Shown piece by piece: positions 6,430 to 63,417 of a stretch of DNA of 64,000 nucleotides; within the stretch, counting starts at the first letter, position 1, and every line of letters begins with the position of its first letter. The notes beneath the pieces are model-generated. The model did not search any database and was not told the DNA's origin. It saw nothing but the letters and a program-made list of their open reading frames with translations. Where the stretch lies: NCBI GenBank assembly GCA_024195265.1, contig JAJLRJ010000013.1, positions 17,802,021 through 17,866,020 of the forward strand. Reading direction: 5' to 3'. This stretch comes from Dendrophyllia cribrosa (lineage: Eukaryota; Cnidaria; Anthozoa; Scleractinia; Dendrophylliidae). Both the position numbers and the translations under genes were made by a program.

Positions 6430-6460
6430 TATATTCAAAATTATTCACGCATATTTAAAA

Positions 6461-11970: not shown

Positions 11971-12470
11971 ACAGCCCGCGGACGACAACGGATGCACAAG
12001 CACCCGGCTGTTACAAATGCGATAAGACCAGATGTGACCTTTGCGAGAATTTCCTTGTCAGTTCTAAAACTTTTTTCAGCGTCCAAACTGGCAAAACATA
12101 TAGTGTTCGACAAAGACTTTCGTGCAACTCCAATAATGTAATTTATTTGGTTCATTGCAAGAAATGCAATCTCCAATATGTTGGATCTACCACTACTGAA
12201 TTTAAAGTTAGATTTAGGAACCACAAATCTACTATGAAAACAAACAAGAAAACCTGCGAGGTCGCCATACACTTCAACAGAACGCCACACATTCTATCAG
12301 ATTTCACTTTTCAATGCATAGACCAAATTTATACAAACACAAATCAAGACACAGAAAAATTACTTGTCACTAAAGAAGCGTACTGGAGTGCGCAGCTATT
12401 TTCCCTTTCGCCCTTTGGGCTAAATAAAAGACAGGAATTTCATTCAAAAAATCGTATTCATTACAATTAA
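11971..12470 (+). pseudogene. GIY-YIG endonuclease fragment of Penelope copy B
   Basis: Open in one frame from the truncation point to the stop. It carries the CYKC/CDLC cysteine cluster, then VIYLVHC, QYVGSTT and the NHKSTMKTNKK segment. There is no start codon of its own and the whole RT is missing, so it is a dead 5'-truncated copy. The sequence itself is not frameshifted, in contrast to copy A. Confidence 0.8.
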
Positions 12471-31329: not shown

Positions 31330-31720
31330 TATAGTTAGGCCTAGCCTAACAGCGTCGCCGTCTGAAGACCCTCTGAACAAGCTTAACTAAGATAAAACTT
31401 AACTTAGGTGAAAGGTCGGAAGTACAAGAATTAAGATTGACGACCGGGCTATTTTTCAATTTTAGCAGTTCTCAAAAACAGTATTACCCGACCGTCTCCA
31501 CAGTACATTTAGACCGTACAAAAGTTCACGAAAACAACTTTTTCTCCGTCTAGAATAACTATTATGACTATTTTCCGAGTAAAATACAGTTGTTGCTCGT
31601 CAAAAAATGCCCGAGAAACTGATTTGGAAATCAAAATTGCAAAAATACACAAACATATTTGCATAAGGCGACGCGAGTATAAAATCTAAGTCTTGTTTTG
31701 TTTACATAAAATCGTTTTTA
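31330..31720. repeat. dispersed repeat, inverted partner at 1-415
   Basis: Reverse complement of the first 415 bp of the window, diverged. Here the outer boundary near 31720 is visible. Confidence 0.75.
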
Positions 31721-32679
31721 TCTCGTTAATGCGCATGCGCATAAACGAGATTTAGGAGTGAATACAAAAAGGACAAAAGTTGTTAACAAAAGGCTATTGT
31801 TAACTTTTGTCCTGGGGGGTTACTTCTTTCTTCTTTATAGAAGCTATTAGGGTATTGAGGATATGGTTGGTTAAACCGGTTAGGATTTCAAGAAGGGCGT
31901 CACATACCGCCACTTAAATTTTTGAGGAGCACCCCCGGACCTATTGTTAATTTCCCTAGGGTATTGGGATGTCAGAACTAGTCATTAACTTGTCATATCT
32001 CACATTACGTCACCGCAAAGGTATTAAAGTTCTTATTAAGTTTCGATACCTCACGTTACCTATCGAGAAATATCAATGTTTCAAATTTTCAATCATTTGT
32101 CGTAAAGCCATTAAAGCTGCTTTAGAAGGGTAAAAATAGGTCAAATGCGTTTCCTTGGGAAACGCAGTTTGAGAATTTCACGGTGTATTTTTACGAATGG
32201 AGACGTTTTAAGGAAGTTAAAAGTTTGTGTTTTACTGATGAGCGATATGGCAGAGCAAAATAGCATGATCTTTGGGTTTGTTCTATTTTGGAATACTGAA
32301 TCATTGCTATTACGGTTTGATTATGCAATACTATGGGAAAGACGTCATAGTTTTGGTGATTTAGCTACCGTGCACGAGCAAATTTTTGCGGAAGGAAAAT
32401 TCTGCGGATTGCCCGACTGAATTTGTTTTGCGGGAGGAAATTTTTGCGGGTCGAGACAGCTAAAATTTTTGCTTGGAGGAAATGTTTGCGGATTTCTGGT
32501 CAAGTATAAATGAAATCCAAGGCATCGGTATTAAACTGCAATTTTACTTCCTGACCGGAGGTTTCTATAGGTTCACTGTTAAAAAGTTCCTGTTAAGCCG
32601 ATATGCATCATTAAAACAAGTAATTTTTTTCTGCGGAAGTATATTTCTGCGGTGGAAAATTTAATACAAAATAAAATAA
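31721..32679. other. no gene; small palindrome at 31780-31812
   Basis: GGACAAAAGTTGTTAACA is followed by TGTTAACTTTTGTCC, forming a hairpin. The 91-codon frame at 32145-32420 resembles nothing known. Confidence 0.4.
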
Positions 32680-43690: not shown

Positions 43691-43806
43691 GAGAACGTAT
43701 ATAGAGCTAGAACGTATATTGTCTAATTTTAATGCGTATCTACATGAGTAATTAGTGTTAACGTTCTGTGATGTTTCATATACTTTCAAACTTTATTTTA
43801 TTGTAG

Positions 43807-44076
43807 GTGCACCTGAAATAACCACTCATCCACAAAGTGGCACGAAAACAGAAGGAGAAAACGTGACTTTATTTTGTAACGTCAGTGGGAATCCACTACT
43901 GAATTTGTCATGGACCTTAGATGGATGTCCTGTAAATGCGATCGCCAATCCTAGAATAAGTTTATCATCAGATAAAAAAGAGTTGAATATAACGAATGTA
44001 AGCAGAGTGGACAGTGGAGAATACCGATGTGTTGCGAACAACATCGTCTCCAATGCTGCTATACTGGATGTGCAAT
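43807..44076 (+). CDS. Ig exon 1 (divergent founder-type I-set Ig domain)
   Basis: Extracellular Ig-fold exon of 270 bp (90 residues), phase 1 at both ends. The acceptor is a T-rich tract ending TTGTAG (43801-43806) and the donor is GTAAGT from 44077. It starts APEITTHPQSGTKTEGENVT. The fold residues are visible: B-strand Cys in LFCNVSGNP, Trp in LSWTLDG, and the DSGEYRCVANN F-strand motif with the second Cys. N-glycosylation sequons occur at NVT, NVS, NLS, NIT and a second NVS. It is clearly related to the 17-exon array downstream, which shares the HPQ/QPQ, SGNP, RISLSSD and DSG-Y-C words, but is distinct in sequence and intron. Joining to an array exon gives a Tyr codon at the junction and keeps the frame. 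An upstream exon must exist but was not found. Confidence 0.88.
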
Positions 44077-44805
44077 GTAAGTTCACAGTCCATGTAAGTA
44101 GTATACGGAATAAGGGTTTTGCGTCGGGCGGATCATGCGGATCATGCGGATCTGCATAATAAGAGATGTAATATGTAAATAGTGACATCATCGCGGTAGA
44201 CAATAGGGATATAGGGCCTGTTCAAGCTTGTCCGAGTCAGTAAAGTATGAAGTAGGAGTTAAAAATACGACATACGATAAATTTGGACTGTTTTAGCTGT
44301 CTTGACTGTTTTTTTTTTCCTGCTGTTTTCTACTGTCAATAAAATAATTGTATTGTAGAATTATATTGTATTGCAGAGTTGGGTAGATATATGCTCTCGT
44401 CTTCATAGTGTTCGCTGTCTATTCTTTGTAAAACTTAATCTTAATAAAACATTGTTTCTCTCTCTCTAGGAGACGATTGGTTAAAAGCGGTTTTCGCACC
44501 ATTCAATTCTATGAATTGGTAGTTTTATGAAGGCCATTCGATCCACAAATTGTGGTGTATTTTAATCGATAATTTCAGTAGGTTAAGTCTACTCTTTATT
44601 TATCACTTTGACTTTCCAGTAGCTTCAAAGTTCAAACTTTTAATTATGCGAACACTGAACTATAAATTTGCATGAAAAATTAGCACCTCGGAAAATTAAC
44701 AAAGCAACCAATTTCATGCGCACGCTAAAACAATAAAACCACACCTTGTTAAGTTTAAACTATATTTATTGATAACAAACAAGTACATAATTATACAGGC
44801 AATTA
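44077..44805. other. presumed intron after Ig exon 1
   Basis: Starts with the strong donor GTAAGT. A GGATCATGC repeat lies at 44131-44155. No further exon recognised. Confidence 0.5.
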
Positions 44806-45782
44806 AAAAGCTTAGTTGGAAAGGAACAGACAGAGTTGGCCAGCAAGAGAAACCACGCCAACATTTCCCAATCGCAAAAATTAGTTACGGCAAAACACAA
44901 AAAATCACCATCCGAAACCGGACTTAATCTCCCACAAAATGAATATGGTTAACATCGTTTTTCATTGATGATTTTATAGGAGTGCACCCAAAAGAAAAAC
45001 CCACCGTAATTATGTTTTACAGAGAGAGTCTCATTTACTTAGCGACTGAATGGACTACGCGAAAAACTCCATTTGTTTTCACAGAGCAACTCCGAGCAAC
45101 TCAGAGCATCTCAGAGCAACTCAGAGTAACACAGATCGACAAGGAGCATCTGTTATCGACCCTATAACATGATCAACTCAGAGCAACTCAGAGTAACACA
45201 GATCGACAAGGAGCATCTGTTCTCGACTCTATAACATGATCAACTCAGAGCAACTCAGAGCAACTCAGAGCAACTCAGAGTAACTCAGAGCAACTCAAGG
45301 GTGTAAGCCAATGAGGAGTAACTTTCAAACCAGTTCAGATATATAGGTGATCAACCTGATTTAAACTGGTTTGACAGTGACTCCTCATTGGTTTACACCT
45401 TTGAGTTACTCTAAGTTGCTGTGAGTTGATCATGTTATAGAGTCGATAACAGATGCTCCTTGTCAATCTGTGTTACTCTGAGTTGCTCTGAGATGCTCTG
45501 AGTTGCTCTGTGAAAACAAATGGAGTTTTTCGTGTAGTCCATTCAGTCGCTAAGTAAATGAGACTCTCTCTGTAAAACATAATTACGGTGGGTTTTTCTT
45601 TGAGGTGCACTCCTCCTATAAAATCATCAATGAATAACGATGTAAACCATATTTTGTGGGAGATTAAGTCCGGTTTCGGATGGGTGATTTTTTGTGTTTT
45701 TTGCGATTGGGAAATACTGGCGTGGTTTCTCTTACTGGCCAATTCTGTCTGTTCCTTTCCAACTAAGCTTTTACAACAGAGG
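44806..45782. mobile_element. 977-bp near-perfect palindrome with GAGCAACTCA arrays
   Basis: Arms of about 0.5 kb, 44806-45338 and 45363-45782, are reverse complements from the outer AAAAGCTTAGTTGGA to the inner AAACCAGTT around a short spacer. Both arms carry tandem decamers GAGCAACTCA (or complement), which are more numerous in the left arm (45080-45295). Transcribed, it would form a long double-stranded hairpin. It lies in the interval between Ig exon 1 and the array. Probably a foldback element. Confidence 0.85.
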
Positions 45783-45934
45783 TCAAAAACTATAATACTT
45801 AATATTTTAAGAATGACATTTATTATTGACAATTGCAAAATAATACATTACAGAAAATCTACTCGCATTTTAATTCATTTTCCAAGGAATTGATCACGTT
45901 GTATTAAAACTATCGTGATATTTTCTCTTTCTTG

Positions 45935-46470
45935 CTGTTTCACCAATTTATTGCACTCATCACCACAGTTTTGACATTATAAAGGCAGAATCTCCTGAAT
46001 GCGATTACATGTATTTTTTTTTTCATTACCTGTATATTTTGGGCTTCCAAAAATTAATTGAAAATCTGGGCAGTAGGAGGGGTCTCTAGGCTTGGAAATC
46101 CAGGCCCGGGGGGGGGGGGGGGGGGGGTAGTCTAGCGGGTCAGGAAATCCGGGCTGAGGAGGAGGGGTCAAAAAATCTTGCCATCCGTCTGTGGGGGGGG
46201 GGGGGGGGGGGGGGGGGGTGGGTGGGTGGGGGGGGTGGGTGGGTGGGTGGGTGTGGATTCTTTCTGGAATAACCCAATGTAATACAAATAATTCACGGTT
46301 TGGGAAGTATTAGACTAGTGTGGGTTTGATCAGGAATCAATGGGTGATGGTGCAATGTGTGTCACGCAAAATTCGTTGAGGAGGGAGGGGGGAGGGGGGA
46401 GGGGTGCGTGACCCGTTTAAAACTTTCTTACGCAAGCGCATGAGTATAGGCTACTGGTAGCCTCTTGTTA
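45935..46470. repeat. dispersed repeat copy with G-run insertion, partner at 19835-20125
   Basis: The outer parts match 19835-20125. The middle (about 45990-46290) is extra and holds G runs at 46109-46127 and 46195-46255, the latter with several TGGG units. Confidence 0.7.
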
Positions 46471-46639
46471 CAACATTGCTTCTCGTGCCTATCTCTGTTG
46501 TATTTTCGGCTAAATACTCTTTCACAGAATTGACAAGAATGCATATTGATCCACGATGGTTACTCGTGCAAACACATCGCCTTGCTTATTTATATAGCTG
46601 ATTCACTCAAAAGGGTTTTGTTAATTGAGTATGTCTTTT

Positions 46640-46935
46640 TGTTACAATGTGCATCATCTCCATCATTACCAAGTAAGGTGATACAAGTGTGCATCATTAC
46701 CAAATAAGGTGATACAAGTGTACATCATCTCCATCACCTCCACATAAGGCGTTGATGAGATTCCACTTCACGTTAATTTAACAAGTGTGCATCATCTCCA
46801 TCATTGCCAAATAAGGTGATACAAGTGTACATCATTACCAAATAAGATGATACAAATGTACATCATCTCCATCACCTCAACATAAGGCATTAATGAGATT
46901 CTACCTCACGTTAATTTATTCCACTTCACATTAAT
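46640..46935. repeat. degenerate tandem repeat (CATCATCTCCATCA units)
   Basis: The words GTGCATCATCTCCATCA, ACCAAATAAGGTGATACAAG and CATAAGGC(G/A)TT recur three to four times in changing order. No coding frame. Confidence 0.75.
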
Positions 46936-48513
46936 GAGATTGCTCCGCAAATTAATGAGCTTGCTCAGCAAAAAAGAAGTTAATTTGGTCCCTCCTATAC
47001 TACTCATGTATGATTCTTAAAGTTCTTATGAAGCGAAATGTAATTACTTTGTTTTTCTGCAGTTATTAATCTGCTCAAAGATGCGACACTTCGCTGAAAA
47101 AAAAAATTGGATACACTCTGACGAATGAAAGCTCCCGTTTTTAACTCGCAAATACGTGAGGCCGTGAGGCGTTGAACGGGTTGTAGCGTCCGCGTCAAAA
47201 TTTCACACGACCGCTATCTCGCTCGATTGGCTGTAAAAATGTCGAAGTAATTCTGCCAACCTTTGCATAAGGCTTCGAGCTCTGAAGGACTTCAAATAGA
47301 TTTTTCTAGACTAAGAAAAACGCTACAGAATGGCAAATATTGTTTTTAGATGTGTGAATTTTCGCTGTCCTTTGTAATGGTTCAAATGAACTAAATTCTG
47401 TTTCGATGAATTAAAAAAAACATGTCTTAGCGTGACAGAAATGCGCACTGTCTAAAATAAGACAGAAAACTTGAGTGCACCGTTCCGGTATACATGTATA
47501 GGTATTACGATTTTAGCGATAATAGATAACATCTCATTTATAAACAGGTAAACTTTCAATGTGTATAAAGATGCCATTTTTCATAAACGATAATTTGCAT
47601 ACCTGTATATGTCTTTCACCCTCTCAACCCAATCCGTTTCATTATACTGTCCGCATATTTACATCACCATACAACACACGTTAAAACTCACAACCAAATT
47701 ATCACAGTTTGTCACCTCTTCAAAAGTCTTATATTTTAGCATCGAATTAAACAAATTGTTGGTTTGAGCCGGGATGGCACAGTGATGAAAGTACTCCCCT
47801 TGAATCCTCAAAAACCAACGTTTATAATCTTTAATTTGATCTGGAATCTGGGGCCACAGGTTTGTCAGGCGCACGGCTGTTAAGTGTCACTCTAGTTAAA
47901 CAAATGTGATCGATTGTTGAATAACCTGCATAACAGACGTAATTTTCTTGTGTTTTAATGCGAGCGCGAACAGAGCGTAAGGCGAGCGCGAAACGTGAGT
48001 CGTGCGACAAGAGAGAGAAACGCTTGGTAGACGTTTTTCCGTCTGCAGGATTCCTGTGGATTGTGTCGAATTTGTTAGCTTGAGATGACGAATAACCTTG
48101 AAGCTAATATTGAAAATTTTGCGCATGGTTTAAGGTTATTTGTTACTCCACTGACAATACCTCACATTTTCTACCATATAAAAAAGACCACTTTCATGAA
48201 AAGAGGAAATGAACGTATCATCAAGTACGGGGTTGCTCGTCGGAAAATTTCGAAAAACACCCTAAAAGGTACCAGAATCTTGTTTGATAGGCGCGGCTCA
48301 AACATATTTTTACACCTAAGAGGTACCAATTTTATACAACACAAGACATAGTCTGTCATATTTTTTAGCTCAATACCCTAAAGGGTATCGCGATAATTCT
48401 AACCATGGTCATTTTAGATTTTAGCACCCTGAGCGATAACAATCTACATATTTTGACCCCTAAAAGTTACGACGAGCACCCCCGTAATTTTCATATCATA
48501 TCATATATTCATA
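46936..48513. other. no exon recognised
   Basis: Sequence upstream of the decayed Ig exon. No Ig, FN3, signal-peptide or membrane exon could be identified. Confidence 0.4.
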
Positions 48514-48675
48514 CTGAATTTGTCATGGACCATAGATCGATCTCATGTAAATACGACCGCCAATCCCAGAATCAGTATATCATCAGTATATCTTCATCAC
48601 TTTAACGAATGTAAGTAGAGTGGACAGTGGAGAATATCGATGTGTGGTGAACAACATCAAAGCTGGATGTGCAAT
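48514..48675 (+). pseudogene. decayed Ig exon, related to Ig exon 1
   Basis: 162 bp align with the 3' part of Ig exon 1, beginning CTGAATTTGTCATGGACC and ending GTGGACAGTGGAGAATA...CTGGATGTGCAAT followed by an intact-looking donor GTAAGA. The 5' part with the acceptor and first Cys is missing, an in-frame stop and indels occur around 48600, and about 15 bp are deleted before the end. The sequence after the donor is of the array-intron type, so this is the decayed first unit of the array and links exon 1 to the array. Confidence 0.85.
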
Positions 48676-48710
48676 GTAAGAATACATATTATCAGCTATA
48701 GTGATCGTTA

Positions 48711-49085
48711 AGCCCCTTTCCCACATACACGAATTTTCGTACGGTTGATCACGATTTTTGAATTTTTAACAATCGCGGTCTACCGTGGCAATTTGCGCGC
48801 GAATCACCAACATGCTGTTGCGGTTGACCACGGCAACGCTACGGTGGTACTACGAAGCTACAACGAAGGTTTTACGTTTGTCTAAAAATTTGTTTGTGCT
48901 ACGATACACGATGTTTTGACATGTCAAAAAAAATCGTGATCTTTTCCGGTGTCGTCACGGTCCATTAAGGCGCACCACGAATTGCTACGGTCGACCACGA
49001 ATTTCCTCCCGACGCCACTGCGATTTTTAAAAATTAAAAAATCGTGATCGACTGTACGAAAATTCGTGTATGTGGGAAAGTGGCT
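48711..49085. mobile_element. 375-bp MITE inserted in the array intron, TTA target duplication
   Basis: The ends are inverted repeats containing CCACATACACGAATTTTCGT. TTA flanks both sides (48708-48710, 49086-49088). The flanks join to GTGATCGTTAGCGAACGTG, which exists uninterrupted in the paralogous introns (for example near 50542-50560), so the insertion point is directly visible. A TTA duplication is typical of PIF/Harbinger elements. Confidence 0.9.
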
Positions 49086-49334
49086 TTAGCGAACGTGGAG
49101 ATTATTGGTGATCTTTTCCAAGGATTATAACGAATTGGTTTTTAATGATTTGCTCGCATTTGATCGGCTACCAAACGGCTACCAAAATACGTAAGATTTT
49201 AGCCCTAAAGATTGGCAATTTGGCGATTGTCTTCGGTCATTTGGAATCCTGCCGATGATGCTGCACCACAGTTCCAATTTCTGTATAGAATATTGAATAA
49301 CTTGACAATAGATTATGCTGTTTACTCTTATTAG

Positions 49335-49613
49335 ATAAGCCCGAGTTCACCTCACAACCGCAGAATGAGACTAAAGAAGAAGGAGAAACCGTGACTTTCT
49401 CTTGCAATGCAAGTGGCAATCCTGCACTAACGACATTTTTATGGACCGTAAATGAATCTGCTGTAATTGTGGCCGGTAGAATCAGTTTATCAGCAGATCA
49501 GACGCAGTTGACAATAACCAATCTGAACAGACTGGACAGCGCACAATACAGATGTGTGGCTAAAAACACCGTTGGCAATCTTACTTCCAGTGCTGCCACG
49601 CTAGATGTCATAT
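49335..49613 (+). CDS. Ig array exon A1
   Basis: First complete array exon: 279 bp, 93 residues, phase 1-1, acceptor CTTATTAG (ends 49334), donor GTAAGA. Residue numbering used for the array: split Tyr 1, Cys24 (B strand), Trp37 (C strand), Asp68-x-Gly70-x-Tyr72-x-Cys74 (F strand), which is a standard I-set Ig domain without its own extra domains. This copy reads GETVTFSCNASGNPALTTFL and VNESAVIVAGRISLSADQTQ. It is the only one with Ala instead of Gly70 (DSAQYRC), and it has Lys77. Sequons NET, NAS, NES and NLT suggest heavy glycosylation. It is followed by a 453-bp intron. Confidence 0.92.
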
Positions 49614-50066
49614 GTAAGAATACTATTACCTTGTGTTTATGTTTAGGTCGAACCAAGGACGGGATAGTTTGTTCAGCAGTCTGGTAACAGACACATAAAA
49701 AGGAATAAAATTTGTACTGTTAGGAAAAGTGCCAAAACCGTATACGGTCCTCAAAGCAAGCATAAGCACTCCAAAAGTGAGCCAGCATATCCGCAGTCTT
49801 ATTAGCTATAGTGATCGTTAGCGAATGTGTGACTAACATTATTGGTGATGCATTCCAAGCAATATAACGAATTCGTTTGTAAAGAATTGCTCGCAATTGA
49901 TCACAAGCGACTACCAAAAAAACGAAGATGTTTGCCCTAAAGGTTGGCTATTTGGCGATTGTCTTCCGTCAAATGGAATCTCGCCAACGATGATTCACCA
50001 CAGATCCATTTTCTGTATAGAATATTGAATAACTTGACAATAGACTGTGCTGTTTTCTCTTATTAG

Positions 50067-50345
50067 ATAAGCCCGAGTTCACCACACAACCGCAGAATGA
50101 GACTAAAGAAGAAGGAGACATGGTGACTTTCTGTTGCAATGCAAGTGGTAATCCTATACAAACAACATTTTCATGGATCGTGAATGGATCTGACGTAATT
50201 GTGGCCGGTAGAATCAGTTTATCAGCAGATCAAAAGCAGTTGACAATAACCAATCTCAACAGACTGGACAGGGGACAATACAGTTGTGTGGCTACCAACA
50301 CCGTTGGGAATCTTACTTCCAGTGCTGCCACGCTAGATGTCCAAT
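50067..50345 (+). CDS. Ig array exon A2
   Basis: Variant with GDMVTFCCNASGNPIQTTFS, WIVNGSDV and DRGQYSCVA. It carries an extra Cys23 next to the conserved Cys24 and Arg instead of Ser69, so its disulfide chemistry could differ. A 449-bp intron follows. The translation appears identical to exon A10 (55909-56187). Confidence 0.92.
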
Positions 50346-50794
50346 GTAAGAATACTTTTACCTTGTGTTTGTGTTTATGTCGAACCAAGGACCGGATAGT
50401 TTGTTAAGCAGCATGGTAACAGATACAAAAAAGAAGACGACATTTGCACTGTTAAGAATAGTGCAAAAACCATATACGGTCCTCAAAGCAAGGATAAGCA
50501 TTCCAAAACTCAACCAGCATCTCCAAAGTCTTATTAGCTATAGTGATCGTTAGCGAACGTGCGAGATTATTAGTGATCTTTCCCAAGGATTATAACGAAT
50601 TGGTTTTTAGTGATTTGCTCGCATTTGATCACAAACGGCTACCAAAATACGGAAGATTTTAGCCCTAAAGGTTTGCAATTTGGCGATTGTCTTCGGTCAT
50701 TTGGAATCCTGCCGATGATGTTGCACCACAGTTCCAGTTTCTGTATATAATATTGAATAACTTGGCAATAGACTCCGCTGTTTTCTCTTATTAG

Positions 50795-51073
50795 ATAAGC
50801 CCGAGTTCACCACACAACCGCAGAATGAGACTAAAGAAAAAGGAGAAAACGCGACTCTCTCTTGCGATGCAAGTGGTAACCCTGTACGAACGACATTTTC
50901 ATGGACAGTAAATGAAACTGCTGTAATTGTGGCCGGTAGAATCAGTTTATCGGCAGATCAGAAGCAGTTGACTATCACCAATCTGAACAGACTGGACAGC
51001 GGACAATACAGATGTGTGGCTACCAACACCGTTGGGAATCTAACTTCCAGTGCTGCCACGCTAGATGTCCAAT
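50795..51073 (+). CDS. Ig array exon A3
   Basis: Variant with KEKGENATLSCDASGNPVRT and TVNETAVIVAG. The sequon NAT directly precedes Cys24 and NET replaces NGS at residues 40-42. Donor GTAAGA at 51074; 452-bp intron of the type with the ACCGAGGACGGGATAGTTGG word. Partner in the second block: 56637-56915. Confidence 0.92.
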
Positions 51074-51525
51074 GTAAGAATACTTCTACCTTGTATTTAT
51101 TTTTATGTAAAACCGAGGACGGGATAGTTGGATTAAAAGTCTGGTACCAGACACAGAAAGGAAGAAATTTGCACGTTAGGAAAAGTGCAAACCATTTAGG
51201 CTCCTCAATGCAAGGATATGCACTCTAAAACTCAGCCAGCATATACATAGCCTTATTAGCTAATATATATAGTGAGCGAAACAAACGTCCGAGATTATTA
51301 GTGATCTATCGTCACAAGGAATATAACAAATTGTTTTTTAAAGACTTGCTCGCATTTGATCACAAACGACTACCAAAAAAGACAAGATTTAAGCTCTAAA
51401 GATTGGCAATTTGGAGATTTTCTTCAATTCGGTCAAACGATGCCAACGGTGTTTCACCACAGATCCAGTTTCCGTATAGAATATTGAATAACTTGGCAAT
51501 ATACTGTGCTGTTTTCTCGTATTAG

Positions 51526-51804
51526 ATAAGCCCGAGTTCACCACACAACCGCAGAATGAGAATAAAAAAGAGGGAGAAATGGTGACTTTCTCTTGCGATG
51601 CAAGTGGTAACCCTGTACCAACGACATTTTCATGGACGGTAAATGGATCTGCTATAATTGTGGCCGGTAGAATCAGTTTATCAGCAGATCAAAAGCAGTT
51701 GACAATAACCAATCTGAACAGACTGGACAGCGGACAATACAGATGTGTGGCTACCAACACCGTTGGGAATCTTTCTTCCAGTGCTGCCACGTTAGATGTC
51801 CAAT
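51526..51804 (+). CDS. Ig array exon A4
   Basis: Variant with QNENKKEGEMVTFSCDASGN, PVPTTFSWTVNGSAIIV and NLSSSAAT. The first sequon is lost (NEN). The acceptor tract is CTCGTATTAG. It appears identical to exon A12 (57368-57646), including adjacent intron bases. Confidence 0.92.
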
Positions 51805-52256
51805 GTAAGAATACTTTTACCTTGTGTTTATGTTTATGTCGAACCAAGGACGGGATAGTTTGTTCAGCAGCCTGGTAACAGACACATAAAAAAGATGAAA
51901 TATGTACTGTTAGGAAAGGTGCAAAACCATATACGGTCCTCAAAGCAAGCATAAGCACTACAAAAGTGAGCCAGCATAGCCGCATTCTTATTAGCTATAG
52001 TGATCGTTAGACGAATGTGTGACTAAGATTATTGGTGATGTATCCCAAGGAATTTAACGAATTGGTTTGTAAAGAATTGCTCGCAATTGATCACAAGCGA
52101 CTACCAAAAAAACGAAGGTTTCTGCCCTAAAGGTTGACAATTTGGCGATTGTCTTCCGTCAAATGAAATCTCGCCAACGATGATTCACCACAGATCCATT
52201 TTCTGTATAGAATATTGAATAACTTGACAATAGACTGTGCTGTTTTCTCTTATTAG

Positions 52257-52535
52257 ATAAGCCCGAGTTCACCACAAAACCGGAAAATGAGACTAAAGAA
52301 GAAGGAGACATGGTGACTTTCTCTTGCGATGCAAGTGGTAATCCTATACCAACGACATTTTCATGGACCGTGAATGGATCTGACGTAATTGTAGCCGGTA
52401 GAATCAGTTTATCAGCAGATCAAAAGCAGTTGACTGTAACCAATCTCAACAGACTGGACAGCGGACAATACAGTTGTGTGGCTACCAACACCGTTGGGAA
52501 TCTTACTTCCAGTGCTGCCACGCTAGATGTCCAAT
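52257..52535 (+). CDS. Ig array exon A5
   Basis: Variant with TKPENETKEEGDMVTFSC, GNPIPTTFSWTVNGSDV, LTVTNLN and QYSCVA. Thr-Lys-Pro-Glu replaces the usual Thr-Gln-Pro-Gln. Trimer partner of A2 but with a single Cys at position 24. A 449-bp intron follows. Confidence 0.92.
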
Positions 52536-52984
52536 GTAAGAATACTTTTACCTTGTGTTTGTGTTTATGTCGAACCAAAAACCGGATAGTTTGTTAAGCA
52601 GCATGGTAACAGATACAAAAAAGAAGACGACATTTGCACTGTTAGGAATAGTGCAAAACCCATATACGGTCCTCAAAGCAAGGATAAGCATTCCAAAACT
52701 CAATCAGCATCTCCAAAGTCTTATTAGCTATAGTGATCGTTAGCGAACGTGCGAGATTATTGGTGATCTTTCCCAAGGATTATAACGAATTGGTTTTTAG
52801 TGATTTGCTCGCATTTGATCACAAACGGCTACCAAAATACGGAAGATTTTAGCCCTAAAGGTTGACAATTTGGCGATTGTCTTCGGTCATTTGGAATCCT
52901 GCCGATGATGTTGCACCACTCTTCCAGTTTCTGTACATAATATTGAATAACTTGGCAATAGACTCTGCTGTTTTCTCTTATTAG

Positions 52985-53263
52985 ATAAGCCCGAGTTCAC
53001 CACACAACCGCAGAATGAGACTAAAGAAGAAGGAGAAAACGCGACTCTCTCTTGCGATGCAAGTGGTAACCCTGTACGAACGACATTTTCATGGACCGTA
53101 AAGGAATCTGCTGTAATTGTGGCCGGTAGAATCAGTTTATCGGCAGATCAGAAGCAGTTGACTATAACCAATCTGAACAGACTGGACAGCGGACAATACA
53201 GATGTGTGGCTACCAACACCGTTGGCAATCTAACTTCCAGTGCTGCCACGCTAGATGTCAAAT
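52985..53263 (+). CDS. Ig array exon A6
   Basis: ENATLSC type with TVKESAVIV, so the sequon at residue 40 is lost by Asn to Lys, and it ends LDVK. A 453-bp intron follows. Partner in the second block: 58828-59106. Confidence 0.92.
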
Positions 53264-53716
53264 GTAAGAATACTTCTACCTTGTATTTATTTTTATCTAA
53301 AACCGAGGACGGGATAGTTGGATTAAAAGTCTGGTACCAGACACAGAAAGGAAGAAATTTGCACGTTATGAAAACTGCAAAACATTTAGTCTCCTCAATG
53401 CAAGGATATGCACCCTAAAACTCAGCCAGCATATACAGAGCCTTATTAGCTAATATATATAGTGAGCGAAAACCAACGTCCGAGATTATTAGTGATCTAT
53501 TGTCACAAGGAATATAACAAATTGTTTTTCAAAGACTTGTTCGCATTTGATCACAAACGACTACCAAAAAAAAAAAGTTTTAAGCTCTAAAGGTTGCCAA
53601 TTTGGAGATTTTCTTCAATTCGGTCAAACGATGCCAACGGTGTTTCACCACAGATCCAGTTTCCGTATAGAATATTGAATAACTTGTCAATATACTGTGC
53701 TGTTTTCTCGTATTAG

Positions 53717-53995
53717 ATAAGCCCGAGTTCACCACACAACCGCAGAATGAGAATAAAAAAGAGGGAGAAATGGTGACTTTCTCTTGCGATGCAAGTGGTA
53801 ATCCTGTACCAACGACATTTTCATGGACGGTAAATGGATCTGCTATAATTGTGGCCGGTAGGATCAGTTTATCGGCAGATCAGAAGCAGTTGACTATAAC
53901 CAATCTGAACAGACTGGACAGCGGACAATACAGATGTGTGGCTACCAACACCGTTGGGAATCTAACTTCCAGTGCTGCCACGCTAGATGTCCCAT
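53717..53995 (+). CDS. Ig array exon A7
   Basis: NENKKEGEMVTFSC type with NPVPTTFSW and a unique last residue Pro (LDVP). The reading frame stays open through the donor for another 109 codons into the intron, to a stop at 54321. Intron retention would therefore give a defined alternative tail. The same holds for partner A15. Confidence 0.92.
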
Positions 53996-54447
53996 GTAAG
54001 AATACTTCTACCTTGTATTTATTTTTATATAAAACCGAGGACGGGATAGTTGGATTAAAAGTCTGGTACCAGACACAGAAAGGAAGAAATTTGCACGTTA
54101 GGAAAAGTGCAAAAATATTAGGGTCCTCAATGAAAGGATATGCACTCTTTAACTCAGTCAGCATATACAGAGCCTTATTAGCTAATATATATATAGTGAG
54201 CGAAAGCAAACGTCCGAGATTATTAGTGATCTATCACAAGGAATATAACGAATTGTTTTTTAAAGACTTGCTCGCGTTTGATCACAAACGACTACCAAAA
54301 AAGACAAGATTTAAGCTCTAAACGTTGGCAATTTGGAGATTTTCTTCAATTCGGTCAAACGATGCCAACGGTGTTTCGCCACAGATCCAGTTTCCGTATA
54401 GAATATTGAATAACTTGGCAATAGACTGTGCTGTTTTCTCTCATTAG

Positions 54448-54726
54448 ATAAGCCCGAGTTCACCACACAACCGCAGAATGAGAATAAAAAAGAGGGAGAA
54501 ATGGTGACTTTCTCTTGCAATGCAAGTGGTAATCCTGTACGAACGACATTTTCATGGACGGTAAATGGATCTGCTATAATTGTGGCCGGTAGAATCAGTT
54601 TATCAGCAGATCATAAGCAGTTGACAATAACCAATCTGAACAGACTGGACAGCGGACAATACAGATGTGTGGCTACCAACACCGTTGGGAGTCTTTCTTC
54701 CAGTGCTGCCACGTTAGATGTCCAAT
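54448..54726 (+). CDS. Ig array exon A8
   Basis: EMVTFSCNASGNPVRT type with SADHKQL (His instead of Gln56-Lys pair start) and VGSLSSSAAT, which removes the NLT sequon. The acceptor is CTCATTAG, slightly different from the other copies. Last unit of the first eight-exon block. Confidence 0.92.
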
Positions 54727-55175
54727 GTAAGAATACTTTTACCTTGTGTTTATGTTTATGTCGAACCAAAGACGGGATACTTTGTTAAGCAGCATGGTAA
54801 CAGACATAAAAAAGAAGACGACATTTTCACTGCTAGGAAAAGTGCAAAAACCATATACGGTCCTCAAAACAAGGATAAGCACTCCAAAACTCAACCAGCA
54901 TCTCCATAGTCTTATTAGCTATAGCGATCGTTAGCGAACGTGCGAGATTATTGGTGATCTTTCCCAAGGATTGTAACGAATTGGTTTTTAATGATTTGCT
55001 CGCATTTGATCACAAACGTCTACCAAAATACTTAAGATTTTAGCCTTAAATGTTGCCAATTTGGCGATTGTCTTCGGTCATATGGAATCCTGCCGATGAT
55101 GTTGCACCACAGTTCCAGTTTCTGTATATAATATTGAATAACTTGGCAATAGACTCCGCTGTTTTCTCTTATTAG

Positions 55176-55454
55176 ATAAGCCCGAGTTCACCACACAACC
55201 GCAGAATGAGACTAAAGAAGAAGGAGAAACCGTGACTTTCTCTTGCAATGCAAGTGGCAATCCTGCACTAACGACATTTTTATGGACCGTAAATGAATCT
55301 GCTGTAATTGTGGCCGGTAGAATCAGTTTATCAGCAGATCAGACGCAGTTGACAATAACCAATCTGAACAGACTGGACAGCGGACAATACAGATGTGTGG
55401 CTAAAAACACCGTTGGCAATCTTACTTCCAGTGCTGCCACGCTAGATGTCATAT
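55176..55454 (+). CDS. Ig array exon A9
   Basis: First unit of the second eight-exon block, 5841 bp after A1. Same variant residues as A1 (PALTTFLW, SADQTQL, Lys77, ends LDVI), but with the normal Gly70 and Thr at residue 6, so A1 is the altered copy. A 454-bp intron follows. Confidence 0.92.
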
Positions 55455-55908
55455 GTAAGAATACTATTACCTTGTGCTTATGTTTATGTCGAACCAAGGA
55501 CGGGATAGTTTATTCAGCAGTCTGGTAACAGACACATAAAAACGAATTAAATTTGTACTGTTAGGAAAAGTGCCAAAACCATATACGGTCCTCAAAGCAA
55601 GCATAAGCGCTCCAAAAGTGAGCCAGCATATCCGCAGTCTTATTAGCTATAGTGATCGTTAGCGAATGTGTGACTAACATTATTGGTGATGCATTCCAAG
55701 CAATATAACGAATTCGTTTGTAAAGAATTGCTCGCAATTGATCACAAGCGACTACCAAAAAAAACGAAGATTTTTGCCCTAAAGGTTGGCAATTTGGCGA
55801 TTGTCTTCCGTCAAATGGAATCTCGCCAACGATGATTCACCACAGATCCATTTTCTGTATAGAATATTGAATAACTTGACAATAGACTGTGCTGTTTTCT
55901 CTTATTAG

Positions 55909-56187
55909 ATAAGCCCGAGTTCACCACACAACCGCAGAATGAGACTAAAGAAGAAGGAGACATGGTGACTTTCTGTTGCAATGCAAGTGGTAATCCTATA
56001 CAAACAACATTTTCATGGATCGTGAATGGATCTGACGTAATTGTGGCCGGTAGAATCAGTTTATCAGCAGATCAAAAGCAGTTGACAATAACCAATCTCA
56101 ACAGACTGGACAGGGGACAATACAGTTGTGTGGCTACCAACACCGTTGGGAATCTTACTTCCAGTGCTGCCACGCTAGATGTCCAAT
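55909..56187 (+). CDS. Ig array exon A10
   Basis: Second-block copy of A2, 5842 bp downstream, again with the double Cys (TFCCNASG) and DRGQYSC. Conservation of both odd features shows they predate the block duplication. Confidence 0.92.
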
Positions 56188-56636
56188 GTAAGAATACTTT
56201 TACCTTGTGTTTGTGTTTATGTCGAACCAAGGACCGGATAGTTTGTTAAGCAGCATGGTAACAGATACAAAAAAGAAGACGACATTTGCACTGTTAGGAA
56301 TAGTGCAAAAACCATATACGGTCCTCAAAGCAAGAATAAGCATTCCAAAACTCAACCAGCATCTCCAAAGTCTTATTAGCTATAGTGATCGTTAGCGAAC
56401 GTGCGAGATTATTAGTGATCTTTCCCAAGGATTATAACGAATTGGTTTTTAGTGATTTGCTCGCATTTGATCACAAACGGCTACCAAAATACGGAAGATT
56501 TTAGCCCTAAAGGTTTGCAATTTGGCGATTGTCTTCGGTCATTTGGAATCCTGCCGATGATGTTGCACCACAGTTCCAGTTTCTGTATATAATATTGAAT
56601 AACTTGGCAATAGACTCCGCTGTTTTCTCTTATTAG

Positions 56637-56915
56637 ATAAGCCCGAGTTCACCACACAACCGCAGAATGAGACTAAAGAAGAAGGAGAAAACGCGACTCT
56701 CTCCTGCGATGCAAGTGGTAACCCTGCACGAACGACATTTTCATGGACAGTAAATGAAACTGCTGTAATTGTGGCCGGTAGAATCAGTTTATCGGCAGAT
56801 CAGAAGCAGTTGACTATAACCAATCTGAACAGACTGGACAGCGGACAATACAGATGTGTGGCTACCAATACCGTTGGGAATCTAACTTCCAGTGCTGCCA
56901 CGCAAGATGTCCAAT
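56637..56915 (+). CDS. Ig array exon A11
   Basis: Copy of A3 with KEEGENATLSC, GNPARTTFSW and TVNETAV. The C-terminal strand reads AATQDVQ with Gln in place of the conserved Leu90, a non-conservative change in the G strand. Confidence 0.92.
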
Positions 56916-57367
56916 GTAAGAATACTTCTACCTTGTATTTATTTTTATGTAAAACCGAGGACGGGATAGTTGGATTAAAAGTCTGGTACCAGACACAGAA
57001 AGGAAGAAATTTGCACGTTAGGAAAAGTGCAAAACATTTAGGCTCCTCAATGCAAGGATATGCACTCTAAAACTCAGCCAGCATATACATAGCCTTATTA
57101 GCTAATATATATAGTGAGCGAAACAAACGTCCGAGATTATTAGTGATCTATCGTCACAAGGAATATAACAAATTGTTTTTTAAAGACTTGTTCGCATTTG
57201 ATCACAAACGACTACCAAAAAAGACAAGATTTAAGCTCTAAAGATTGGCAATTTGGAGATTTTCTTCAATTCGGTCAAACGATGCCAACGGTGTTTCACC
57301 ACAGATCCAGTTTCCGTATAGAATATTGAATAACTTGGCAATATACTGTGCTATTTTCTCGTATTAG

Positions 57368-57646
57368 ATAAGCCCGAGTTCACCACACAACCGCAGAATG
57401 AGAATAAAAAAGAGGGAGAAATGGTGACTTTCTCTTGCGATGCAAGTGGTAACCCTGTACCAACGACATTTTCATGGACGGTAAATGGATCTGCTATAAT
57501 TGTGGCCGGTAGAATCAGTTTATCAGCAGATCAAAAGCAGTTGACAATAACCAATCTGAACAGACTGGACAGCGGACAATACAGATGTGTGGCTACCAAC
57601 ACCGTTGGGAATCTTTCTTCCAGTGCTGCCACGTTAGATGTCCAAT
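57368..57646 (+). CDS. Ig array exon A12
   Basis: Copy of A4, 5842 bp downstream. No difference seen over the exon. The acceptor region differs by one base in the tract (GCTATTTTCTCG instead of GCTGTTTTCTCG). Confidence 0.92.
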
Positions 57647-58098
57647 GTAAGAATACTTTTACCTTGTGTTTATGTTTATGTCGAACCAAGGACGGGATAG
57701 TTTGTTCAGCAGCCTGGTAACAGACACATAAAAAAGAAGAAATATGTACTGTTAGGAAAGGTGCAAAACCATATACGGTCCTCAAAGCAAGCATAAGCTC
57801 TCCAAAAGTGAGCCAGTATAGCCGCATTCTTATTAGCTATAGTGATCGTTAGACGAATGTGTGACTAAGATTATTGGTGATGTATCCCAAGGAATTTAAC
57901 GAATTGGTTTGTAAAGAATTGCTCGCAATTGATCACAAGCGACTACCAAAAAAACGAATATTTTTGCCCTAAAGGTTGACAATTTGGCGATTGTCTTCCG
58001 TCAAATGAAATCTCGCCAACGATGATTCACCACAGATCCATTTTCTGTATAGAATATTGAATAACTTGACAATAGACTGTGCTGTTTTCTCTTATTAG

Positions 58099-58377
58099 AT
58101 AAGCCCGAGTTCACCACAAAACCGGAAAATGAGACTAAAGAAGAAGGAGACATGGTGACTTTCTCTTGCGATGCAAGTGGTAATCCTATACCAACGACAT
58201 TTTCATGGACCGTGAATGGATATGACGTAATTGTGGCCGGTAGAATCAGTTTATCAGCAGATCATAAGCAGTTGACTGTAACCAATCTCAACAGACTGGA
58301 CAGCGGACAATACAGTTGTGTGGCTACCAACACCGTTGGGAATCTTACTTCCAGTGCTGCCACGCTAGATGTCCAAT
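58099..58377 (+). CDS. Ig array exon A13, altered donor site
   Basis: Copy of A5 with WTVNGYDV (sequon lost, Ser to Tyr) and SADHKQL. The 5' splice site is GTTAGA instead of GTAAGA, a change at the +3 base that also creates an in-frame TAG if the intron is read through. It may splice less efficiently than all other array exons. Confidence 0.9.
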
Positions 58378-58827
58378 GTTAGAATACTTTTACCTTGTGT
58401 TTGTGTTTATGTCGAACCAAGGACCGGATAGTTTGTTAAGCAGCATGGTAACAGATACAAAAAAGAAGACGACATTTGCACTGTTAGGAATAGTGCAAAA
58501 ACCATATACGGTCCTCAAAGCAAGGATAAGCATTCCAAAACTCAATCAGCATCTCCAAAGTCTTATTAGCTATAGTGATCGTTAGCGAACGTGCGAGATT
58601 ATCAATGATCTTTCCCAAGGATTATAACGAATTGGTTTTTAGTGATTTGCTCGCATTTGATCACAAACGGCTACCAAAATACGGAAGATTTTAGCCCTAA
58701 AGGTTGGCAATTTGGCGATTGTCTTCGGTCATTTGGAATCCTGCCGATGATGTTGCACCACAGTTCCAGTTTCTGTATATAATATTGAATAACTTGGCAA
58801 TAGGACTGTGCTGTTTTCTCTTATTAG

Positions 58828-59106
58828 ATAAGCCCGAGTTCACCACACAACCGCAGAATGAGACTAAAGAAGAAGGAGAAAACGCGACTCTCTCTTGCGA
58901 TGCAAGTGGTAACCCTGTACGAACGACATTTTCATGGACCGTAAATGAATCTGCTGTAATTGTGGCCGGTAGAATCAGTTTATCAGCAGATCAGAAGCAG
59001 TTGACTATAACCAATCTGAACAGACTGGACAGCGGACAATACAGATGTGTGGCTACCAACACCGTTGGGAATCTAACTTCCAGTGCTGCCACGCTAGATG
59101 TCCAAT
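58828..59106 (+). CDS. Ig array exon A14
   Basis: Copy of A6, but with the regular TVNESAV and LDVQ, so A6 carries the changes. The frame is open upstream through the intron end as far as an ATG at 58704, which is coincidental read-through of the intron. Confidence 0.92.
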
Positions 59107-59559
59107 GTAAGAATACTTCTACCTTGTATTTATTTTTATGTAAAACCGAGGACGGGATAGTTGAATTAAAAGTCTGGTACCAGACACAGAAAGGAAGAAA
59201 TTTGCACGTTAGGAAAATTGCAAAACATTTAGGCTCCTCAATGCAAGGATATGCACTCTAAAACTCAGCCAGCATATACAGAGCCTTATTAGCTAATATA
59301 TATAGTGAGCGAAAACCAACGTCCGAGATTATTAGTGATCTATCGTCACAAGGAATATAACAAATTGTTTTTTAAAGACTTGTTCGCATTTGATCACAAA
59401 CGACTACCAAAAAAGACAAGATTTAAGCTCTAAAGGTTGCCAATTTGGAGATTTTCTTCAATTCGGTCAAACGATGCCAACGGTGTTTCACCACAGATCC
59501 AGTTTCCGTATAGAATATTGAATAACTTGGCAATATACTGTGCTGTTTTCTCGTATTAG

Positions 59560-59838
59560 ATAAGCCCGAGTTCACCACACAACCGCAGAATGAGAATAAA
59601 AAAGAGGGCGAAATGGTGACTTTCTCTTGCGATGCAAGTGGTAACCCTGTACCAACGACATTTTCATGGACGGTAAATGGATCTGCTATAATTGTGGCCG
59701 GTAGGATCAGTTTATCGGCAGATCAGAAGCAGTTGACTATAACCAATCTGAACAGACTGGACAGCGGACAATACAGATGTGTGGCTACCAACACCGTTGG
59801 GAATCTAACTTCCAGTGCTGCCACGCTAGATGTCCAAT
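59560..59838 (+). CDS. Ig array exon A15
   Basis: Copy of A7 with LDVQ at the end and Gly-Glu (GAGGGCGAAATG) unchanged in protein. Like A7 it reads open past the donor to 60164, giving the same potential intron-retention tail with few differences. Confidence 0.92.
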
Positions 59839-60290
59839 GTAAGAATACTTCTACGTTGTATTTATTTTTATATAAAACCGAGGACGGGATAGTTGGATTA
59901 AAAGTCTGGTACCAGACACATAAAGGAAGAAATTTGCACGTTAGGAAAAGTGCAAAAATATTAGGGTCCTCAATGCAAGGATATGCACTCTTTAACTCAG
60001 TCAGCATATACAGAGCCTTATTAGCTAATATATATATAGTGAGCGAAAGCAAACGTCCGAGATTATTAGTGATCTATCACAAGGAATATAACGAATTGTT
60101 TTTTAAAGACTTGCTCGCATTTGATCACAAACGACTACCAAAAAAGACAAGATTTAAGCTCTAAACGTTGGCAATTTGGAGATTTTCTTCAATTCGGTCA
60201 AACGATGCCAACGGTGTTTCGCCACAGATCCAGTTTCCGTATAGAATATTGAATAACTTGGCAATAGACTGTGCTGTTTTCTCTTATTAG

Positions 60291-60569
60291 ATAAGCCCGA
60301 GTTCACCACACAACCGCAGAATGAGAATAAAAAAGAGGGAGAAATGGTGACTTTCTCTTGCGATGCAAGTGGTAATCCTGTACGAACGACATTTTCATGG
60401 ACGGTAAATGGATCTGCTATAATTGTGGCCGGTAGAATCAGTTTATCAGCAGATCATAAGCAGTTGACAATAACCAATCTGAACAGACTGGACAGCGGAC
60501 AATACAGATGTGTGGCTACCAACACCGTTGGGAGTCTTTCTTCCAGTGCTGCCACGCTAGATGTCCAAT
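60291..60569 (+). CDS. Ig array exon A16
   Basis: Copy of A8 with CDASGNPVRT instead of CNAS, SADHKQL and VGSLSSSAAT. A 449-bp intron follows. Last unit of the second eight-exon block. Confidence 0.92.
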
Positions 60570-61018
60570 GTAAGAATACTTTTACCTTGTGTTTATGTTT
60601 ATGTCGAACCAAAGACGGGATACTTTGTTAAGCAGCATGGTAACAGACATAAAAAAGAAGACGACATTTTCACTGTTAGGAAAAGTGCAAAAACCATATA
60701 CGGTCCTCAAAGCAAGGATAAGCACTCCAAAACTCAACCAGCATCTCCAAAGTCTTATTAGCTATAGCGATCGTTAGCGAACGTGCGAGATTATTGGTGA
60801 TCTTTCCCAAGGATTGTAACGAATTGGTTTTTAATGATTTGCTCGCATTTGATCACAAACTTCTACCAAAATACTTGAGATTTTAGCCTTAAAGGTTGCC
60901 AATTTGGCGATTGTCTTCGGTCATTTGGAATCCTGCCGATGATGTTACACCACAGTTCCAGTTTCTGTATATAATATTGAATAACTTGGCAATAGACTGT
61001 GCTGTTTTCTCTTATTAG

Positions 61019-61297
61019 ATAAGCCCGAGTTCACAACACAACCGCAGAATGAGACTAAAGAAGAAGGAGAAAACGCGACTCTCTCTTGCGATGCAAGTGG
61101 TAACCCTGTACGAACGACATTTTCATGGACCGTAAATGAATCTGCTGTAATTGTGGCCGGTAGAATCAGTTTATCGGCAGATCAGAAGCAGTTGACTATA
61201 ACCAATCTGAACAGACTGGACAGCGGACAATACAGATGTGTGGCTACCAACACCGTTGGGAATCTATCTTCCAGTGCTGCCACGCTAGATGTCCAAT
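61019..61297 (+). CDS. Ig array exon A17 (last in window)
   Basis: ENATLSCDASGNPVRT type with TVNESAV and NLSSSAAT, resembling A6/A14 rather than A9 of the expected register, so the third block does not simply continue. A normal donor (GTAAGA) is present. The downstream intron sequence lasts until about 61615, where an unrelated repeat begins, so any next exon lies beyond this repeat or is lost. Confidence 0.92.
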
Positions 61298-62590: not shown

Positions 62591-62596
62591 AACAAC

Positions 62597-63055
62597 TACC
62601 GTTGAGGGTAGCCCTGGGCCAGTTGAGTGGTTCTCAGAGGGAGTCAAATCTACCGATGAGGGTAGCCCTGGGCCAGTTGAGTGGTTCTCGGGGGGGTCAA
62701 ATCTACCGTTGAGGGTAGTCCTGGGCTAGTTGAGTGGTTCTCAGGGGGGTCAAATCTACCGATGAGAGTAGCCCTGAGCCAGTTGAGTGGCTTTTCAGGG
62801 GGTCAAATCTACCGTTGAGGGTAGCCCGGAGCTAGTTGAGTGGTTTTCAGGGGAGTCAAATCTACCGATGAGTGTAGCCCTGGGCCAGTTGAGTGGTTTT
62901 CAGGGGGGGCTCACATCTACCGATGTGGGTAGCCCGGGGCCAGTTGAGTGGTTTTCAGGGGGGTCAATTCTATCGATGAAGGTAGCCCTGAGCCAGTTGA
63001 GTGGTTTTCAGGGGGGGGGACAGATCTACCGATGAGGGTAGCCTTGGGCCAGACA
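62597..63055. repeat. 53-55 bp minisatellite, about 8 units
   Basis: Units contain TCTACCGATGAGGGTAGCCC, GGGCCAGTTGAGTGGTT and a G run followed by TCAAA. They are read in one frame by 62787-63035 as repeated LSGFQGG/VEWFSG peptides, but indels between units break the frame. Confidence 0.9.
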
Positions 63056-63162: not shown

Positions 63163-63417
63163 ATGTTGGTGGCGAAAAAAGAGGAGGCCGACGTAGCCAA
63201 AGTGATCACCAAGGCCCTCAGGAAAGGGACGAAGCTCCCGAAAGGCCCAAGGGGTTTCCAGTCCCCGCAGCCTTGGCAGAGCGGTAGGGCGCGTCCGTCG
63301 CCTTACACTCCACCTCCACGGGGTCATCGAAATGTCAGTAATATGGGGCAAGGAAATTGCTTTACATGTGGCCGCCCCGGGCATTTCTCACGAAACTGCC
63401 CGAATCGTAAAACGTGA
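63163..63417 (+). pseudogene. gag-like CCHC zinc-knuckle fragment of a retroelement
   Basis: An 84-codon frame. The middle is basic and Pro-rich (KGPRGFQSP, YTPPPRGHRN). Near the C terminus is CFTCGRPGHFSRNC, a perfect CX2CX4HX4C zinc knuckle, followed by PNRKT and a stop. This is the nucleocapsid-type RNA-binding motif of LTR, DIRS or LINE gag/ORF1 proteins. Upstream similarity to a coding sequence is lost at the minisatellite, so the gag is truncated. No protease or RT was recognised downstream in the window. Confidence 0.65.

Follow-up and report, generated by a model that had tools for sequence, protein, structure and literature searches.

The stretch analysed here (the window) comprises 64,000 nucleotides of a contig, C5, of the coral Dendrophyllia cribrosa (C5:17802021-17866020) and carries a tandem array of 17 near-identical exons, each encoding one immunoglobulin (Ig) domain. 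We propose, with a probability of roughly two in three, that these 17 intact exons are joined by splicing, one after another, to encode the outer arm of a polycystin-1-like (REJ/PKD1) receptor, whose REJ, PLAT, and polycystin-channel exons lie beyond the 3' end of the window. A puzzling Ig array is thereby turned into a testable gene model.

All 17 Ig exons described in the initial annotation were located on the plus strand at 49335-61297 (Table 1). Each is 279 bp long, stop-free, and in phase 1-1, so that any one of them could be skipped or repeated without a frameshift, as that annotation had stated. Consensus splice sites were likewise confirmed: TTAG directly precedes each of the 17 exons, and GT follows each, with the donor reading GTAAGAAT in 16 cases and GTTAGAAT in exon 13. 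Pairwise identity among the exons is 89-100%, with 15 of the 17 distinct, and the 16 introns between them, as calculated from exon spacing, are 449-454 bp each. This regularity is far beyond chance.

The claim that every exon encodes one I-set Ig domain also held. Pfam I-set was matched by all three array exons that were scanned (3/17; E-values 1.4e-17 to 6.8e-19) and, counting a solo Ig exon 5' of the array, in 4/4 scans; the numbering Cys24, Trp37, and Cys74 is correct when the junction codon is taken as residue 1. Each array exon encodes one to four N-glycosylation motifs, with at least three in 10/17. An AlphaFold model of the unit, built on a 22-sequence alignment, has a predicted local distance difference test (pLDDT) score of 92; its closest solved structures are Ig domains of LAR-type phosphatases, MuSK, LRIG1, Robo, and titin, and the closest PDB matches by sequence are Robo2, CEA, and contactins. 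The unit is therefore an ordinary adhesion-type I-set Ig domain. A homology search returned 11 matches, the best with 81% identity across 79% of the query. A scan of viral contigs gave four distant Ig matches (30-37% identity).

Table 1. Ig exons in the window (window coordinates).
Feature	Position	Strand	Remarks
Solo Ig exon, intact, 5' of array	43807..44076	+	270 bp, phase 1-1; AG before, GTAAGTTC after
Ig exon relic, 5'-truncated, degenerate	48512..48680	+	
Array Ig exon 1	49335..49613	+	
Array Ig exon 2	50067..50345	+	
Array Ig exon 3	50795..51073	+	
Array Ig exon 4	51526..51804	+	
Array Ig exon 5	52257..52535	+	
Array Ig exon 6	52985..53263	+	
Array Ig exon 7	53717..53995	+	Mosaic: first third resembles exons 4/8, last third resembles exon 3
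Array Ig exon 8	54448..54726	+	
Array Ig exon 9	55176..55454	+	Copy of exon 1
Array Ig exon 10	55909..56187	+	Identical to exon 2
Array Ig exon 11	56637..56915	+	Copy of exon 3
Array Ig exon 12	57368..57646	+	Identical to exon 4
Array Ig exon 13	58099..58377	+	Copy of exon 5; donor GTTAGAAT
Array Ig exon 14	58828..59106	+	Copy of exon 6
Array Ig exon 15	59560..59838	+	Copy of exon 7
Array Ig exon 16	60291..60569	+	Copy of exon 8
Array Ig exon 17	61019..61297	+	Nearest to exon 14

Downstream of the array on the plus strand, the coral genome carries exons that encode REJ (at 81.6-87.5 kb in window coordinates), then a GAIN/GPS-like region, then PLAT (at 145.2 kb), and lastly a polycystin channel (at 149.8-151.7 kb). 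These were found by tblastn comparison of 13 open frames of an upstream paralogue with the whole region. Among seven downstream stretches, Pfam recognized REJ twice (4.8e-22 at profile positions 81-206; 1.4e-37 at 208-413), PLAT (4.5e-14), Polycystin_dom together with PKD_channel (5e-27 and 2.2e-34, respectively), and, below its cut-off, GPS; two of the seven had no match. An HLT tripeptide occurs in the stretch next to the GPS-like match. The best solved relative of the PLAT exon is Polycystin-1 (2.6e-43), whereas the channel exon is closest to PKD2L1 and PKD2 among solved structures and also matches PKD1L3 and Polycystin-1. Simple hydropathy predicts 1 + 5 + 5-6 transmembrane segments. The traits of the polycystin-1/REJ family that were found are therefore REJ, PLAT after the first transmembrane segment, and approximately 11 transmembrane segments with a polycystin/TOP domain and a channel-like C-terminus. 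Of the exon types that the initial annotation had suggested seeking on the plus strand, transmembrane exons were thus recovered; FN3, like PKD repeats, was absent from Pfam scans of that strand at 24-44 and 61.3-80.8 kb, and no signal-peptide exon was detected by a crude filter in the 78 kb upstream of the solo exon.

The upstream paralogue is a tandem copy of the same gene body. Its Ig exons lie approximately 122 kb upstream of the window's solo exon, and its order on the plus strand is two intact Ig exons and then REJ through channel; the Ig-REJ spacing is 7.4 kb, and Pfam scored the REJ after these Ig exons at 6.6e-17. Pfam detected no other domain between Ig exons and REJ in the paralogue and no PKD repeats at -100 to -80 and -77.8 to -67.8 kb. 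The two bodies, at -70.4 to -35.3 kb and at 81.6 to 151.7 kb, form a colinear alignment chain of 22.15 kb. Six stretches are 91-97% identical and stop-free in both copies (dN [nonsynonymous divergence] 0.0245; dS [synonymous divergence] 0.0526); the rate test consists of these six, with seven others, at 65-86% identity and with unclear exon bounds, excluded. Tandemly duplicated genes are numerous in corals (PMC10236652).

The Ig exons of the two copies differ in number. The paralogue has two intact Ig exons and one truncated, and the window copy has the solo exon and a truncated exon before the array; the neighbours therefore differ in predicted arm length, with 2 versus 18 Ig domains. Comparison of C5:17713683-17724249 with window positions 43736-48680 reveals reciprocal decay, each copy being intact where the other is truncated. 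The copies are 97% alike around PLAT (C5:17759456-17764217 vs. window coordinates 142786-147549) and 82-90% alike around the Ig exons, a difference perhaps due to gene conversion in the membrane part. Candidate, as yet unproven, signal-peptide exons of the paralogue are two hydrophobic starts, each with a phase-1 donor, located 15-18 kb before its Ig exons (-97007 to -96950 and -93381 to -93309 in window coordinates); ahead of the window gene, the first of them is without a clear counterpart. Two blocks shared between the copies (5582-6432 and 31714-32064) lack a conserved reading frame and resemble repeats, and a third shared segment (47141-48222) yielded no convincing exon.

Order, strand, and splice phase together make a strong case for a gene model joining Ig and REJ. 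The array and the REJ, PLAT, and channel exons occupy the same strand, 20 to 90 kb apart, and the succession of Ig, REJ, GAIN/GPS-like, PLAT, and channel is common to the window copy and the paralogue. The 409-bp REJ exon (at 81613 in the window copy) starts with AT, as do the array exons, and its acceptor is phase 1 in both copies, compatible with the phase-1 donor at the end of Ig exon 17. In the interval between array and REJ (61.3-80.8 kb), plus-strand Pfam scanning returned only a zinc knuckle, and a crude filter found no start-exon candidate at 64-81 kb. Treating the array as an orphan, with only the zinc knuckle near its 3' side, was abandoned once the paralogue's REJ exon had led to the exons at 81.6-151.7 kb. 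The array is likely extracellular, as its N-glycosylation motifs indicate, and linked to a receptor.

Within the array, exons 9-16 are an in-order duplicate of exons 1-8, the duplicated block measuring 5841 bp. Between the two blocks, exons differ at 20/2232 sites (0.90%) and introns at 60/3609 (1.66%; Fisher p 0.015), and nonsynonymous differences (11/1693.5 sites) are rarer than synonymous ones (9/514.5 sites; p 0.031). Because exons have changed more slowly than introns, the array has, by this measure, been under constraint. Simulation without constraint indicated that 17 clean exons would be unsurprising if only the time since the last doubling is considered (P 0.27) but improbable over the time since divergence from a second array locus (P < 0.001). 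Exon 7 is a mosaic, which we take as a sign of within-exon exchange. A tree built from 55 Ig exons places the 17 window exons in one clade (support 91), with each exon i adjoining exon i+8. The number of Ig units may shift by unequal exchange among near-identical repeats, a process with which the recent doubling of the eight-exon block and the mosaic exon 7 would be consistent, as would a paralogue holding two intact Ig exons.

The second locus, 11 Mb away at C5:28.70-28.75 Mb, carries the same kind of exons: 35 within 60 kb, all of them open, in phase 1-1, and flanked by AG and GT. The genome search that detected it scored 40 of 50 candidates, and its yield is accordingly a lower bound. The minus strand has 2 leading, 24 array-type, and 3 tail-type Ig exons, and the plus strand has 6 more in the stretch examined; two Ig-array genes face away from each other (C5:28695007-28754135), and Pfam found nothing between their first Ig exons on the strands scanned. 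In the 55-exon tree, the array exons of the minus strand fall into two alternating classes and not into one clade. A comparison of window exons 1-8 with 23 exons and 22 introns of this locus gave differences of 9.6% for exons and 19.0% for introns; dN/dS between the arrays is 0.28. A segment found 3' of each array (28690.5-28691.0 kb and 67.9-68.4 kb) was rejected as a shared exon and classed as a repeat, because it aligns in both orientations.

Several observations weigh against assigning the array to the receptor. A gap of 20.3 kb, containing a retroelement-type zinc knuckle, separates the array from REJ; the relic at 48512 is decay directly beside the array; and the signal-peptide exon is missing, as described above. 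Within the receptor body, positions 1-80 of the REJ model are unmatched, the GPS match reaches 20.7 bits against a Pfam cut-off of 22.5, dN/dS between the gene copies is only moderately low (0.47), and the 7 of 13 stretches with 65-86% identity are perhaps part intron or repeat. At the second locus, Pfam found no match on the gene strand in the 10 kb past the last Ig exon, and only 2 of the paralogue's 13 receptor stretches match there, on the opposite strand; given that orientation and the fact that both also match at 8 kb in the window, they are likely a repeat.

Four other explanations were weighed. The array may belong to the receptor with all exons usable and skipping yielding arms of varied length, as in the elastic region of titin, where length variants arise by exon skipping. 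Every exon being a multiple of three in length and phase 1-1, single-exon skipping keeps the frame, and exon 13 has a donor of its own; the other 16 exons, however, share one donor, and we regard this possibility as unlikely. Alternatively, the array could be a separate gene, with the gene that runs from REJ to the channel starting independently. The 20.3-kb gap is compatible with such a division, as are the lack of a known start exon and the second locus, where three tail-type Ig exons are followed by 10 kb without a Pfam domain. The paralogue, however, repeats the Ig-then-REJ order over only 7.4 kb, the Ig donor and REJ acceptor are compatible in phase, and the interval offers neither a plus-strand Pfam domain beyond the zinc knuckle (61.3-80.8 kb) nor a start-exon candidate (64-81 kb, crude filter), so that two genes seem rather improbable here.

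A third explanation sees in the array a silent relic, or else a duplicate truncated at its 5' end, from which protein is no longer made. The relic exon, the repeats on both sides of the array, the failure to find a signal-peptide exon, and the reciprocal Ig exon truncation between the gene copies all point in that direction. Against this, all 17 exons are open with splice sites, exons have evolved more slowly than introns even after the block doubling, and the six compared downstream stretches are open; we therefore give this explanation little credence. Finally, choice of one or a few Ig exons per transcript, as in Dscam, is very improbable: tandem frame-symmetric cassettes with good splice sites, a pN/pS of 1.28 over codons 1-23 of exons 1-8, and one 20-bp intron window with exon-like conservation (0.92, where between-locus identity spans 0.70-0.92 in intron windows and 0.83-0.96 in exon windows) would suit it, but exons that are 89-100% identical, including two identical pairs, are too alike to serve as a menu, splice sites are near-uniform, single choice is not enforced because all exon lengths are multiples of three, and the best duplex between leading and array introns falls within the range of shuffles (3/16 introns; 12, 6, and 1 shuffles).

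The likenesses drawn in the initial annotation fared less well than its description of the exons, and its interpretation as a whole is partly supported. Dscam-hv and sDscam do share tandem arrays of Ig-coding exons with the window: Dscam-hv has mutually exclusive exons for half of Ig2, half of Ig3, and all of Ig7 (PMC3364881), and sDscam has a promoter before each cassette (PMC5775551). The Dscam-hv study reports that no Dscam gene was detected in two cnidarian genomes (PMC3364881), though a Nematostella sequence called Dscam roots a tree in PMC5775551. The resemblance ends at the gene body, which in the window gene is likely that of a polycystin (REJ, PLAT, and polycystin channel downstream, no FN3 in the scans given above), and at the over-similar exons and the lack of a docking signal in the few introns and shuffles compared. 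Hydractinia Alr, the other likeness, comprises Ig-domain proteins discussed for cnidarians; Alr is not known to have a polycystin part, and with REJ, PLAT, and polycystin channel exons downstream of the array the comparison is not supported. The duplication of exons 1-8 as 9-16, the solo exon, the relic, and the receptor exons outside the window go beyond what that annotation had described.

If the array does form part of the receptor, with all of its exons included in the transcript, the 93-residue units, joined by very short linkers, would stack as a long rod; the 17 units amount to 17 x 93 = 1581 residues, to which the solo domain is added. By analogy, this rod might act as a tether or bind itself. 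It could be adhesive or force-bearing, with force or contact acting on the receptor's GPS/channel part. A role in sensing force or binding neighbours via Ig-fold PKD repeats is ascribed to polycystin-1 arms, and the polycystin-1-like family is linked to touch sensing and egg recognition. The best reading of the exon order is that I-set Ig domains stand where human PKD1 has its PKD repeats. The arm string would then appear to have been rebuilt from another Ig domain, and neighbouring genes with 2 and 18 intact units would constitute a natural experiment on arm function. More speculatively, and with considerable reserve, some polycystin-1 receptors may have replaced their PKD repeats with an I-set array that evolves fast, varies in copy number, and sets the length and self-binding of the arm; unequal exchange would then tune a receptor for touch or for self/non-self recognition, both among individuals and within one.

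The closest known systems are human Polycystin-1 (PKD1) and sea urchin REJ, with which the proposed gene has in common REJ, a GPS-like region, PLAT, approximately 11 transmembrane segments, a channel end, and a string of Ig-fold domains in the ectodomain. It differs in that each exon of the string encodes one I-set Ig domain, that these units multiplied recently and are 89-100% identical, and that no PKD repeat occurs in the scanned stretches. Human PKD1 has 16 PKD repeats with an Ig-like fold, but these repeats occur in only some polycystin-1/REJ members and do not define the family (PMC1934368). Polycystin-1 is cleaved at the GPS, after which its ectodomain remains bound to the membrane part, and strong self-binding of PKD repeats is named in the title of a reference in the same source (PMC9672506).

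Among cnidarians, polycystin 1 of Nematostella is expressed in mechanosensory hair cells, where its role was untested in the study concerned (PMC8846589), and an Acropora REJ protein occurs in the skeletal proteome/matrix (PMC4890752). Both are reported to combine REJ and PLAT with a multi-pass membrane part, as does the gene proposed here, but to have PKD and WSC domains, and the portions of the two sources drawn upon mention no Ig array. Literature searches confined to open-licence papers listed no Ig array in a polycystin. Multiplication of alike domains as multi-domain blocks is shared with titin, nebulin, and similar repeat proteins, from which the window array differs in being likely extracellular and receptor-linked. 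Titin domains have multiplied in this manner; nebulin domains have done so mainly seven at once (PMC1553488).

A six-frame search for Ig domains across 264 kb (the window plus 100 kb on each side) gave 22 matches, all on the plus strand, of which 19 lie in the window (the 17 array exons, the solo exon, and the relic at 48.6 kb) and the other three upstream of it, at distances of approximately 88 and 78 kb. None lay 3' of the array within the 100 kb downstream.

Repeats lie on both sides of the array. At its left edge, an insertion of approximately 377 bp (48710-49086) has 70-bp inverted ends that are 91% alike and an apparent TTA target duplication; it resembles a miniature inverted-repeat transposable element (MITE). 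Between the solo exon and the array, inverted arms of approximately 370-395 bp, 88% alike, flank short tandem repeats (44806-45772). Soon after the array come a 53-bp minisatellite in 8.5 copies (62596-63052) and the zinc knuckle (CCHC; 63355-63405), which lies in a plus-strand frame and is retroelement gag-like. Farther upstream, the same reading frame occurs on opposite strands at 9893-10534 and 11970-12470, approximately 1.4 kb apart, and presumably encodes a GIY-YIG-type retroelement protein.

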